Shown here: positions 11,883 through 26,669 of the stretch, piece after piece
Position numbering within the stretch: position 1 is the stretch's first letter
How the letters are laid out: each line of letters begins with the position of its first letter
DNA from: Desulfurivibrio alkaliphilus AHT 2
GTDB lineage: Bacteria; Desulfobacterota; Desulfobulbia; Desulfobulbales; Desulfurivibrionaceae
Direction of reading: 5' to 3'
Length of the DNA stretch: 64,000 nt
Assembly (NCBI RefSeq): GCF_000092205.1
Contig: NC_014216.1
Coordinates: forward strand, 1,989,742 to 2,053,741
Position numbers and translations under genes: made by a program
The notes under the pieces: generated by a model
Database searches by the model: none
Told to the model about the DNA's origin: nothing
Seen by the model: the letters and a program-made list of their open reading frames with translations, nothing else

Positions 11883-11990
11883 CAATCACCAAATAAGATG
11901 GCCTCGCAAAAAACCGCCAAAAGAGTTAGTCGGTAAACGCTCGCAGGGTCAAGCAAATCGCTTACATACAAAAAGGACGGCAATGACGAC

Positions 11991-12094
11991 AAGCGTTCAG
12001 CAGTGCCGCAGATTTTCGCAAGCAGTCACGGCAATTATAGCAGCGCTATATTGCCGTGACTGATCGCGGAAAGATGCGGTGCTGATGAGCGCTT
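11991..12094. repeat. Nested palindromic repeat, copy 3 (reverse orientation), maf-acn spacer
   Basis: Two 44-nt arms (11991-12034 and 12051-12094) pair with about nine mismatches around an inner hairpin with TATAG/CTATA. Pairing extends outwards with interruptions to about 11979-12107 and so covers the aconitase stop codon at 12099. The arms carry the same two asymmetric motifs as the copies at 16308 and 26563 but in the opposite order: TGCCGCAG...GCAAGC on the left and, on the complementary strand, CACCGCATCTT...GCGATC on the right. Confidence 0.7.
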
Positions 12095-12098
12095 GCCG

Positions 12099-14024
12099 TT
12101 ATTGCCGGGAGGCCCAATTCAGCAACCCCCCGGCCAATAAAATTTCCCGGTGGCGGGGGGAAACCTCCAGGCGCACCGGAATCTGCCGGCTGCCGGCCTC
12201 CAGCGTCAGCTTTTCCGCCCCGGCCGCCAACTGCTCGCACAGGCCGGGAATGCGCACCGCTTCACCCTGGGCCAGCTGGTCGTAATCGGCCGGGTCGGCA
12301 AAGGTTAACGGAATAATCCCGAAGTTGATCAGGTTGGCCTTGTGGATGCGGGCGAAACTCTTGACCAGCTTGACCTCAACCCCCAGGTAGCGGGGCGCCA
12401 GGGCCGCGTGTTCCCGCGACGAGCCCTGGCCGTAGTTGTCGCCGCCCACCACCAGGCCGGGGCCACGCTCCCGGGCCCGCTTAACGAAATCAACATCCAC
12501 CGCCTCGTAAACAAACTCGCTGATGGCCGGCACGTTGCTCCTCAGCGGCAGCACCCGGGCCCCGGCAGGCATGATATGGTCGGTGGTGATGTTGTCTTCC
12601 ACCTTGAGCAGCACCTCACCCTGCCAGTCGGCGGGGGGAGCTTTAAAAGCGGGAAAGGGGGCGATGTTGGGCCCGCGGACGATCTCCACCGCCGCACCAT
12701 CGCCAGCAGAGAGGGGCGGCTCGATACGGGAATCACCGGGAAGATACTTTTGCGGCATGGCAAAGTGGGGATATTCGCCCAGCTCCCGGGGGTCGGTGAT
12801 TTTACCGGTAATCGCCGCCGCCACCGCCACCTCAGGGCTGCAAAGATAGACCTGATCATCTTTGGTACCGCTGCGCCCCGGGAAGTTGCGGGGGAAAGTC
12901 CGGAGCGAGATGGCCCCGGTGGGCGGCGCCTGGCCCATTCCGATGCAGCCCAGGCAGCCGGCCTGGTGCACCCGGGCGCCGGCCTTGACCAGAGTCAGCA
13001 TATCGCCTTGGGCGGTGAGGTTTTCCAGCACCTGACGGCTGCCGGGGTTAATCTCAAAGCTCAGATCCCGGCTCACCTCCCTGGTTTCCAGGGTCTTGGC
13101 CACCACCATCAAATCGCGCAACGAGGAGTTGGAACAGGACCCCACCAGCACCTGGGCCACCGGCTTGCCGGCCACTTCCCGCACCGGCACCACGTTGTCC
13201 GGCGAAGAGGGGCAGGCAATCAGCGGCTCCAAAGCACCCAGATCAATCTCCATCACCTCGTCATACTCGGCGTCGGGGTCGGCCACCAGCTCCACAAAGC
13301 CCTCTTCCCGGCCCTGACTGGCCAGAAATTCGCGGGTGTTGGCATCGGAGGGAAAGACCGAGCTGGTGGCCCCCAGCTCGGCGCCGAAGTTGGTGATGGA
13401 GGCCCGGTCGGTCACCGACAGTTCGGCCACGCCGGGACCGAAGTATTCCATCACGTAACCCACCCCACCTTTAACTGACAACCGTCGCAGCACCTCCAGC
13501 AGCACGTCCCGGGCCGACACCCACGGCGAGAGCTTGCCGGTGAGCTTGATCCCGTAGACCTTGGGCATTACAAGATAAAACGGCTTGCCGGCCATGGCCA
13601 TGGCCACATCCAGGCCCCCGGCCCCCATGGCCAGCATGCCCAGACCGCCGCCGGTGGGGGTATGGCTGTCGGAACCCAGCAGGGTCTTGCCCGGCAGCCC
13701 GAAACGTTCCAGGTGAACCTGGTGGGAAATGCCGTTGCCCGGCGGCGAAAAATAGAGGCCGAATTTGCGGGCCACGGATTGCAGAAAGCGGTGGTCGTCG
13801 GCGTTACGGAAATCCGACTGGATCAGGTTATGATCGACATAGCAGACCGACAATTCGGTTTGCACCCGGGGAATCCCGATGGCCTCGAACTCCAGGTAAG
13901 CCATGGTGCCGGTGGCATCCTGGGTTAAGGTTTGGTCAATGCGAATGCCGATTTCCTGCCCTTTCACCAACTCACCTTCCACCAGGTGGGCGGCAAGAAT
14001 CTTTTCCGTAACCGTCTGTCCCAT
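12099..14024 (-). CDS. acn: Aconitate hydratase (Aquifex-type)
   Basis: Fe-S enzyme interconverting citrate and isocitrate in the TCA cycle. The 641-residue protein begins MGQTVTEKILAAHLVEGELV, typical of the compact Aquifex/deltaproteobacterial aconitases. Cluster cysteines occur in VGSCSNSS and GCLGCIGMG; substrate motifs include LGSDSHTPTGGGLGMLAMGAGG and the C-terminal NYGQGSSREHAALAPRYLG with the active-site Ser-Arg. The start is ATG 14024 with GGGGAGCAACAGC in front. Longer in-frame starts (14102, 14051) lack a ribosome site. The last codons and stop lie in the edge of a palindromic repeat. It is divergent from the flagellar operon. Confidence 0.95.
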   Translation of the reverse strand: MGQTVTEKILAAHLVEGELVKGQEIGIRIDQTLTQDATGTMAYLEFEAIGIPRVQTELSVCYVDHNLIQSDFRNADDHRFLQSVARKFGLYFSPPGNGISHQVHLERFGLPGKTLLGSDSHTPTGGGLGMLAMGAGGLDVAMAMAGKPFYLVMPKVYGIKLTGKLSPWVSARDVLLEVLRRLSVKGGVGYVMEYFGPGVAELSVTDRASITNFGAELGATSSVFPSDANTREFLASQGREEGFVELVADPDAEYDEVMEIDLGALEPLIACPSSPDNVVPVREVAGKPVAQVLVGSCSNSSLRDLMVVAKTLETREVSRDLSFEINPGSRQVLENLTAQGDMLTLVKAGARVHQAGCLGCIGMGQAPPTGAISLRTFPRNFPGRSGTKDDQVYLCSPEVAVAAAITGKITDPRELGEYPHFAMPQKYLPGDSRIEPPLSAGDGAAVEIVRGPNIAPFPAFKAPPADWQGEVLLKVEDNITTDHIMPAGARVLPLRSNVPAISEFVYEAVDVDFVKRARERGPGLVVGGDNYGQGSSREHAALAPRYLGVEVKLVKSFARIHKANLINFGIIPLTFADPADYDQLAQGEAVRIPGLCEQLAAGAEKLTLEAGSRQIPVRLEVSPRHREILLAGGLLNWASRQ

Positions 14025-14306
14025 GCTGTTGCTCCCCGTCTTGGTCTTCATCACAGTAGGCCGGCCCGCACCAAAAAACGGACCGGCCGGATAATTCGCC
14101 ACACAAAACCGTTGACTATTACCATATCTCCCACCTTTTGTACATCACCTGCCTTAGCCCCTCGGGTCAAAGTCAAATATCCGCCCGGGTCAAAAAAATG
14201 ACCGCGCCGGAGCAGCCGGCCGCGCCCTTTTCTTTTTGGCCCGGCCGGCAGGAAATCGTTGAATAACGGGAAAATCGACGGTACAGTGGCAACTGTTTAC
14301 GGTCAG

Positions 14307-25648: not shown

Positions 25649-25667
25649 GGCTGCGGGATAAACCTCC

Positions 25668-26555
25668 ATGGCGCAGGGGAAAGGTTCCGACCAGGACACT
25701 CTTGGCTCTCCGCCGCCAATCCTGGACAAGCTGGATGACGACGACTGGGGCGACGACTGGGAAGCCGCCTTTCAATCGGAGGACCTGGCGGCCGACGAAG
25801 AGGCGCTGGCCGAGGAGTTCAGCTTCACCGACGACCAGGAACAGGCGGCGGAAGGCACCGGACCATCACCCGCCGCCGAAACCGGCGAACCGGAAAGTGA
25901 TGCCGCCGCCGGACCCGGCCTGGTCAGCCGACTGACGGACATCCTGCCCGCCGCGGCAACAACCCTGATAAACCTTGGCAGGGAACTGCCGCAGCTGCCC
26001 CTTAAGTTGTGGCGCTCCTTCCGGGCCATGGGCCGGCCGCAAAAAATCGTCACCGGCGCCATCGCCCTCACCCTGCTGTTTTCCCTGCTGCTCTTCTCCA
26101 CCCTTAGCCGCGCCCCTGGGCCGCAAATTGTTTTACCCGACGACCCCTTTGGCCTGCAGGAGCCCCTGGATGCCGCACCGCCGGCCGAACCAGCCGTATC
26201 CGTTGCCGAGCCGGAAGTGCCGCACCCACCGCCCACCGAACCCGACCGGCACCGGATATCACTGACTGATTTTCTCATTCCCGTGCCCGGCGATACCGGC
26301 CATGGCGACATCTTCCTGCAACTCGACCTGACCCTCACCGTCCAAACGCCCCCCGGCGAACCACTGAACCCGGTGCTTAAAGCCCAACTCCGGGAAAGCA
26401 TCTACAACTTTTATCGCCGCCGGGACCCCGCCGACCTGCGCCGCTATTCCCTGGCCCGGGGAGATATGCTACGAGATCTCCGCTTCTGGCTGGAAGAACA
26501 CCACCCGGAACTGGAGGCCGATGCCATATCCTTTGACCGCTACTGGCTCAACTAG
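25668..26555 (+). CDS. FliL-like membrane protein with acidic N-terminus
   Basis: A 295-residue protein of uncertain family. Residues 1-85 are very acidic and Asp/Glu/Trp-rich (DDDDWGDDWEAAF). One transmembrane helix lies near residues 128-146, followed by a Pro-rich linker and a C-terminal domain from about 197. That domain (RISLTDFLIPVPGDTGHGD, then LDLTLTVQTPPG and LKAQLRESIYNFYRRRD) resembles the layout of FliL periplasmic domains by eye. Located 20 bp after cheY, it may be a second FliL-type stator helper or another motor protein. The family assignment is inference; membrane topology is clear. Confidence 0.6.
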   Translation: MAQGKGSDQDTLGSPPPILDKLDDDDWGDDWEAAFQSEDLAADEEALAEEFSFTDDQEQAAEGTGPSPAAETGEPESDAAAGPGLVSRLTDILPAAATTLINLGRELPQLPLKLWRSFRAMGRPQKIVTGAIALTLLFSLLLFSTLSRAPGPQIVLPDDPFGLQEPLDAAPPAEPAVSVAEPEVPHPPPTEPDRHRISLTDFLIPVPGDTGHGDIFLQLDLTLTVQTPPGEPLNPVLKAQLRESIYNFYRRRDPADLRRYSLARGDMLRDLRFWLEEHHPELEADAISFDRYWLN

Positions 26556-26562
26556 TAAACTA

Positions 26563-26669
26563 GTAATCGTTCAGCAGCACCGCATCTTGCGGCGATCGGC
26601 CCGGCTTGCGTACTTAGGTACGCGGCGCCGGTCCGCTTGCCGCAACCTGCGGCACTGCTGAACGATTAC
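26563..26669. repeat. Nested palindromic repeat, copy 2, upstream of glnB
   Basis: Arms 26563-26605 and 26627-26669 (43 nt each) flank a 21-nt loop with CGTAC...GTACG. The left arm has CACCGCATCTT...GCGATC and the right-arm complement TGCCGCAGGTT...GCAAGC, the same pair as in fliO, while the outer sequence (GTAATCGTTCAGCAG) differs. It starts 8 bp after the preceding stop and ends 23 bp before the glnB ATG, so it would fold in the glnB leader or end the upstream transcript. Confidence 0.8.

Follow-up and report, generated by a model that had tools for sequence, protein, structure and literature searches.

How does a palindrome keep two unlike arms while the rest of its stem changes from one copy to the next? 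The question is raised by a 64,000-nucleotide (nt) stretch of the Desulfurivibrio alkaliphilus AHT 2 chromosome (the window; positions 1989742-2053741 of the one contig, 3,097,763 bases long, that makes up the genome), in which a sequence-only reading had reported nested palindromes at 11991-12094, 16308-16417, and 26563-26669. It is well supported that the three copies belong to a dispersed, Desulfobulbales-wide family of short mobile DNA hairpins. We consider it probable, in addition, that the family consists of nonautonomous IS66-type miniature inverted-repeat transposable elements (MITEs), the left part of which is a 107-nt imperfect hairpin. All three palindromes were recovered as inverted repeats, as covariance model matches, and in folds:

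11989..12096, minus strand: copy 1, hairpin only (inverted repeat and covariance model, 84 bits)
11978..12107, minus strand: copy 1 with its extended outer arms (11978-12035 and 12050-12107, 81% complementary)
16309..16416, plus strand: copy 2, the hairpin part of a full-length 151-bp element (inverted repeat and covariance model, 110 bits)
16417..16459, plus strand: tail of copy 2, 43 nt, ending in TGGTGAACGGTTAC, the right terminal inverted repeat
26563..26669, plus strand: copy 3, hairpin only (inverted repeat and covariance model, 129 bits)

The covariance model was built from 32 copies and has the three window copies in its seed, so its matches in the window are not independent. Four folds were computed, one for each strand of copy 1 and one each for copies 2 and 3; their z-scores lie between -8.7 and -15.9, and none of 200 shuffles was as stable. 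Alignment, with copy 1 reversed, bears out the two different arm motifs described earlier: one arm shares CACCGCATCTT..GCGATC, and the opposite arm shares CTTGC..CTGCGGCAC. The CGTAC/GTACG core that had been assigned to copies 1 and 2 is actually found in copies 2 and 3; the core of copy 1, GGCAATATAG...CTATAATTGCC, is unrelated to it. Below, the A-first strand is the strand that reads CACCGCATCTT first, the A-end is the 5' end of that strand, and the B-end is the opposite one.

A DISPERSED FAMILY

The sequence-only reading had seen a family of three and proposed a covariance-model search of the genome, to be refuted if neither the genome nor its relatives had more copies; many were found in both. 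With copy 3 as the query, a first look by blastn yielded 291 candidates in the genome (the best 40 of the 291 were scored), and the covariance model matches at least 150 places, none of these below 80 bits. In twenty 20-kb stretches at even spacing, the covariance model finds 22 copies above 90 bits and nhmmer 25 matches in total, and on this basis the genome is estimated to carry about 170 to 190 copies.

How far does the family reach? Across the order, 49 of 58 genomes (this one included) have a match at an E value of 0.001 or less, some of them a single weak one, and all 27 genomes of the same family do. In a sample of the phylum, where only the best 9 candidates per genome were scored and the search was thus insensitive, 6 of 395 genomes match at an E value of 1e-8 or less. 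An exact pattern scan of named genomes placed 77 of the 80 matches listed in Desulfurivibrio, in Desulfobulbaceae/Desulfobulbales, or in unplaced delta-/proteobacterial records. The remaining three matches listed (L162, L205, and L225) are exact and of a 22-letter pattern, with a single match in one assembly each of Ruminococcus, Methanoperedenaceae, and Lachnospiraceae; they may stem from chance, contamination, or transfer. One member of the same genus, G004, has only 12 matches, where the same search gave each of its four congeners at least 57, a contrast that may help in finding the mobilizer. A blastn search of one full copy for carriage by plasmids or phages gave no match. Open-licence papers contained no description of the family; ISfinder and most subscription papers lay outside that search.

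A FULL-LENGTH ELEMENT WITH TARGET DUPLICATIONS

The full form of the element joins the 107-nt hairpin to a 43-nt tail, for a length of about 151 bp (150 to 152 bp in 24 intact copies), and the end of the tail, TGGTGAACGGTTAC, is an inverted copy of the element start (GTAANCG). A 22-nt tail-end pattern, allowing up to 3 mismatches, occurs 89 times in the genome, and a reversed-pattern control occurs 0 times. Thirty of these 89 loci were read: 27 follow a hairpin match (partial at L282 and L294), and the other three do not, although at least two of the three show a remnant by eye. Twenty-four of the 30 have an intact start; the other six were omitted from the duplication count. Around the 24, the flanking 8-mers agree at 8/8 positions in 9 copies, 7/8 in 9, 6/8 in 3, and fewer in 3, while shuffled flanks reach 7/8 or better in 0.8 copies on average and in 5 at most. 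A second tail subtype, belonging to GTAAGCG.TCACGGGG hairpins, has perfect 8-bp repeats in three copies. At L086:4360 the arrangement is AACCAATG-element-AACCAATG, and the counterpart in a congener, G002, is without the element, a filled/empty pair.

Based on the 8-bp duplications and this filled/empty site, the identification of the full-length form as a MITE is well supported. Because the element is flanked by 8-bp direct repeats, its insertion is that of double-stranded DNA. It has no room for a transposase gene, and no autonomous parent with the same tail was found among the 30 of 89 tail loci read.

HAIRPIN-ONLY COPIES

The two forms were compared in 94 copies from this genome, a biased sample drawn from the window, the twenty-stretch sample above, 10 stretches picked for holding copies or for facing G002 contigs, and 27 strong-match loci. 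Matches by nhmmer below 40 bits were left out (4 of 71 in this genome and 4 of 35 in G002). A first split gave 30 full and 64 hairpin-only copies and underlies a first test for repeats and the comparison of sites with G002; a second split, by the union of two tail tests, gave 41 full and 53 hairpin-only copies and was used for the core comparison, the offset scan for repeats, and the stop-codon subtotals.

The hairpin-only copies lack target duplications: direct repeats flank 0 of 42 in the first split and 1 of 66 in a looser one, and the offset scan found none in 53. The pairing of their palindrome continues outward by a single further position (74% complementary versus 32%) and then ends. 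The sequence downstream of the 53 copies retains a faint likeness to the tail (match 0.29 versus 0.251 +- 0.012 for shuffled tails, p=0.001), with a tail score of at least 10 in 5 of them. Therefore, some hairpin-only copies are eroded full-length copies, an account that does not extend to most of them. Exact loss of the tail by slippage between tail repeats is doubtful, since it would leave the duplication in place and the hairpin-only copies have none. At L138:3227-3574 (contig G002:C31) three hairpins stand in tandem where the counterpart junction in this genome has a single hairpin; either repeated insertion or a duplication in place may have produced them.

ONE END DOCKS AT STOP CODONS

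Where do the copies lie relative to genes? Gene calls were made with our own codon-usage finder, without curated annotation. The A-end falls within -6 to +10 nt of the stop codon of the upstream gene in 70 of the 94 copies and the B-end in 5 (two-sided binomial, 1e-15). This holds for both forms, with the A-end at a stop in 25 of 41 full and 45 of 53 hairpin-only copies and the B-end in 4 and 1, respectively. In 31 of the 94 the offset is -4, and the stop codon is the TAA of the element's own GTAA. No called A-first-strand gene ends 5 to 130 nt inside an element in these copies; genes that run through the element number two on the A-first strand and one on the other, in addition to the fliO frame at copy 2, whose start the gene finder placed downstream of that copy. 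Of 35 copies between convergent genes, 32 have the A-end at a stop. Between tandem genes, hairpin-only copies are A-sense in 25 cases and B-sense in 0, and full copies in 17 and 4.

Other genomes show the same rule. The 31 copies from G002 include 17 with the A-end at a stop and 1 with the B-end there, and tandem copies are 12 versus 5; among 80 copies from six other assemblies (G002 again among them; 76 of 120 loci used, those whose records could be grouped, with matches below 40 bits, matches less than 300 nt from a locus end, and duplicates omitted), the counts are 32 and 0. The MGTD assembly, from another genus, has the A-end at a stop in only 7 of 29 copies and has 12 B-sense tandem copies; the Desulfobulbaceae assembly PWOG has 9 of 23 and 7. 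Thus, the one-end rule holds generally, and its strength varies between genomes. The stops at the 45 hairpin-only copies are the element's TAA (19), TAG (14), another TAA (7), and TGA (5), so the target is not one particular DNA word. In total, the docking of one fixed end at stop codons is well supported. Palindromic repeats are common in bacteria, and their preference for gene ends is as a rule loose and without an explanation; in this family the same end meets the stop codon in roughly three quarters of the copies sampled, and the element is often itself the stop.

Turnover between congeners is fast. When full copies were set against syntenic stretches of G002, 16 sites were empty there and 2 were shared, where shared means a G002 element no more than 150 nt from the matching junction; for hairpin-only copies (first split), 17 were empty and 12 shared. 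Another 47 of the 94 copies had a one-sided or no clear counterpart, and at least 5 of the sites counted as empty hold remnants by eye. In cases readable by eye, a full element has entered anywhere between about 45 nt ahead of the old stop and 7 nt past it, and others lie far from stops. Such filled and empty sites in related genomes make the stop-codon bias testable: is it targeting, tolerance, or function?

A PROPOSED MECHANISM

Which enzyme moves the element? Among the 41 tail-bearing copies, 40 start with GTAANCG and 19 with exactly GTAAGCG, and the right end usually reads GTAACCG. The relevant passages of PMC11946415 describe IS66 repeats that start with GTAAGCG and come with 8-bp direct repeats, and a table excerpt of PMC3281130, which lacks its column heading, gives the value 8 for two IS66 elements. 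When six IS66 loci of these genomes were read, GTAAGCG repeats were found on both sides of the gene in five and on one side in one. Mobilization of the IS66 type is likely, an attribution that fits both the terminus and the duplication length, and this combination is a usable mark in seeking the mobilizer.

In the mechanism that we propose, an IS66-family transposase would act in trans, reading the GTAANCG terminal repeats, and the conserved asymmetric loops of the hairpin would be needed to recognize one strand or one end. The first bases, (G)TAA, may supply a clean in-frame stop, such that gene ends tolerate or profit from a hairpin directly at the stop, while insertions away from gene ends would be lost. 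Hairpin-only copies would be in part old full-length copies with an eroded tail and duplication and in part copies spread or homogenized by a separate process, perhaps arm-to-arm copying or gene conversion.

Several observations weigh against this mechanism. Only 18 of 58 genomes have a match to the IS66 DDE domain, and element-rich ones such as G007 and G013 have none, though most of these are drafts. The single IS66 gene of this genome has an open frame of 379 amino acids, compared with 518 to 536 in five other best matches (the one in G002 has 527); with the GTAAGCG repeats at L101:1311 and 2842 taken as its ends, no target duplication is visible by eye, and a profile hidden Markov model (HMM) of the element found nothing around it. 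Beyond the first 7 nt the likeness of the terminal repeats is slight. GTAA stands at both ends and does not account for the preference for the A-end, even in full-length copies (25 versus 4). Finally, hairpin-only copies have almost no direct repeats while their cores lie within a median 4.7% of a neighbor (82 copies, G000 and G002), so erosion alone is insufficient to account for them.

The repetitive extragenic palindromic (REP)-associated tyrosine transposases (RAYT/Y1), to which the sequence-only reading had looked, are rejected as the mobilizer: the genome has two Y1_Tnp genes, each flanked by a different repeat (by eye), the element HMM has no match (E value up to 10) within about 1.5 kb of either, and the full form has 8-bp duplications, which Y1 transposition is not known to make. 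A separate repeat family does occur at window positions 29485-29547, where an inverted repeat of 30 nt (97%; TTAGGGGTCAAGTCTTGACATGACA) is of the same type as those beside the Y1 gene at genome positions 2096256-2096591 (L031); the family is possibly of the kind associated with tyrosine transposases flanked by terminal inverted repeats, as treated in part of PMC3733652.

WHAT KEEPS THE STEMS PAIRED?

In the 32-copy alignment, 97.7% of cells pair, and both partners vary in 19 of 40 pairs; no shuffled or slid structure comes close. The pattern of compensation that the sequence-only reading described therefore stands. Slow RNA compensation does not fit it easily: the changed stem cells are two-sided in 65 cases and one-sided in 2. 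Moreover, among 125 copies, 31 pairs of copies that differ by less than 2% in the core differ at 15.5% of outer-left positions, with about half of the changed pairs compensated; L142:9709 and L037 have no core difference and four changed outer pairs, three of them compensated. Because near-identical cores carry different outer stems, it is doubtful that slow RNA compensation is the sole cause, and arm-to-arm DNA copying, or core conversion between copies, fits the data at least as well. Covariation alone is thus no proof of a structural RNA.

Could the covariation be wholly a DNA-level effect of long palindromes, by template switching or core conversion, without selection on structure? The scarcity of one-sided changes and the outer stems that differ around matching cores both speak for this, and we put it just short of an even chance. 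Copying from arm to arm should, however, erase mismatched loops, and yet the internal loops (CA/CA, TC/CC, and T.C) persist: 8 of 10 loop columns keep one base in 113 to 122 of 125 copies, with columns 24 and 87 varying. Something, then, keeps the asymmetry. The earlier suggestion of a role, drawn from the retained asymmetry, holds insofar as the family is mobile and its asymmetric motifs are kept while stems change; a role as an RNA or as a recognized sequence is conjecture.

Wobble-type mismatches bear on which strand might fold. On the A-first strand, with pair 33-79 left out, A.C outnumbers G.T by 146 to 34, which favors the B-first strand; pair 33-79 is itself G.T in 113 of 125 copies, and with it the totals are equal (146 versus 147). 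Counted by columns, 27 of 38 show the bias (p=0.014). In other sets the counts are 94 versus 79, 116 versus 51, and 39 versus 11, none significant by columns. The excess on the B-first strand is suggestive, and the copies are not independent.

FUNCTION, TARGETING, OR SINGLE-STRAND MOVEMENT

Might the hairpin serve the mRNA in which it lies? It could be a domesticated module that, placed right at the stop codon, holds up terminating ribosomes or keeps exonucleases out, with selection keeping orientation and pairing. Position and orientation at stop codons are what such a module would show; among 29 hairpin-only copies with a resolved site, 12 are matched by a G002 element within 150 nt of the junction, and copy 1, common to this genome, G002, and G001, is kept in G002 with two compensated pairs changed. 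There is also a precedent: the sections of PMC12306157 concerned report that Escherichia coli REPs no more than 15 nt from a stop codon stall ribosomes, and they cite an earlier study giving 260 of 496 REPs. Against the module stand the wobble-like departures, which favor the complement of the mRNA (with pair 33-79 left out; by columns, the bias is weak in one other genome), the near absence of one-sided stem intermediates, and the fast turnover between congeners. Nor is there a clear excess of U-tracts after the hairpin: runs with 4 of 5 T follow 13 of 45 copies, compared with 8 and 9 of 45 in control windows and 14 of 74 at element-free convergent gene ends, and T is enriched at +7 and +8 past the hairpin (0.58 and 0.47), where the tail has GTT. 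We regard a functional RNA hairpin as possible but tentative. An intrinsic terminator is rejected on the same U-tract counts. A known RNA family is rejected as well; the window has no Rfam match above the gathering score, and a permissive scan of copies 2 and 3 gave only below-cutoff matches, mostly to microRNA precursor models.

A second possibility, which we hold to be somewhat less probable still, is that the machinery itself prefers gene 3' ends, mostly in one orientation, by recognizing sequence, the terminating ribosome, or transcript structure. Consistent with this, among the 21 copies with a duplication of at least 6/8, the A-end is at a stop in 11 and the B-end in 2, and several duplications contain whole or partial stop codons by eye. 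Targeting sits poorly with the variety of stops at hairpin-only copies, which have no common flanking sequence that we could see, with full copies that lie roughly 15 to 45 nt before the old stop or far from stops (by eye), and with the low share of docked copies in MGTD.

The observations could also be gathered into a gene-end-specific mobile element, a portable stop plus hairpin whose hairpin-only form spreads without duplication, with mainly one end docking, at any stop codon, and the outer stem rewritten for each gene. We think this unlikely; if true, the niche of this mobile element would be the site where translation terminates.

Least probable, and in our judgment improbable, is the movement of hairpin-only copies as a single strand (HUH/Y1-like or integron-like), in which the folded B-first strand would be recognized and the conserved mismatches would give strand choice. 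The missing target duplications would be explained, the CA/CA loops become tandem U.G on the B-first strand, and the A.C excess points the same way, with the reservations about pair 33-79 and the by-column tests. However, the two Y1 genes have no copy within about 1.5 kb, there is no fixed flanking tetranucleotide, and strand use does not follow the replichores: when position 1 is assumed to be the origin, the 150 copies listed show no replication-strand bias across six consecutive parts of the chromosome, at 7/10, 13/16, 18/17, 13/13, 7/7, and 17/12 (plus/minus). The ends do not fit attC sites either; the core sites of integron attC are RYYYAAC and GTTRRRY, whereas the element ends mostly in GTAANCG and CGNTTAC (alignments, by eye).

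RELATION TO KNOWN REPEATS

IS66 MITEs and insertion sequences share with the element the terminal GTAAGCG or GTAANCG and the 8-bp duplication (21 of 24 copies at 6/8 or better); a large left hairpin within about 151 bp, the docking at stop codons, and the hairpin-only copies without duplication set the element apart. REP elements and REPtrons of E. coli and Pseudomonas are likewise palindromic, high in copy number, and near stop codons, but they measure 20 to 40 bp as opposed to 107 to 151 bp, whereas the element lacks the GTAG tag (it starts mostly with GTAA), has no flanking Y1 gene that was found, makes 8-bp duplications, and turns one end to the upstream stop. The GTAG/CGTC repeats are defined in PMC3733652, the portion consulted having no occurrence of "Desulf."

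YPAL/RU-2 of Yersinia, compared by description, is similar in length (about 168 bp), in its internal inverted repeats, and in its filled/empty site pairs, but its duplications are 3 to 26 bp long and its targets lie at dyad symmetry, according to the pertinent part of PMC2229807. The same part notes that ERIC can alter upstream mRNA in one orientation. ERIC/RU-1, RUP, and Correia are repeats of roughly 100 to 155 bp with terminal inverted repeats and have TA at their ends, unlike the element, which duplicates 8 bp and ends in GTAA/TTAC. The Chunjie MITE of Geobacter uraniireducens also has full and partial copies; at 178 to 235 bp, in the extract of PMC10969869 that deals with it, it is set apart by description.

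THE WINDOW COPIES AND THEIR SURROUNDINGS

The genes next to the three copies are as follows:

12099-14102, minus strand: aconitase gene upstream of copy 1 (Pfam Aconitase)
16273..17097, plus strand: fliO reading frame crossing copy 2 (Pfam FliO at residues 176-267)
25668-26555, plus strand: gene upstream of copy 3, without a Pfam match (TAG stop at 26553-26555)

The A-end of copy 1 lies 2 nt past the stop codon of the aconitase gene, and that of copy 3 lies 7 nt past the TAG. Pfam neighbors include FliN and FliO around copy 2 and P-II after copy 3. Copies 2 and 3 are missing at the orthologous G002 sites, and the flanks of copy 2 show no direct repeat (2/8 match; locus L291). Copy 2 sits inside the fliO frame after codon 12, and the frame is open throughout; G002 has a similar start and no insert. 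The insertion is possibly a coding palindrome, as in Rickettsia elements.

Two further repeats were seen. Window positions 36440-36559 hold imperfect tandem repeats of 24 to 25 bp (AGCTGATCACGCCATGGCTCCATT). Another dispersed repeat, ...GGACGGG.GCCG.G..ACCGGTAGCG.CGGGTTCG.. (by eye), occurs at window positions 7340-7468 and, downstream of the element, at L004, L041, L043, and L092; it forms an inverted repeat in the window, has a ATGGACGCG start in some copies, and may supply gene starts.

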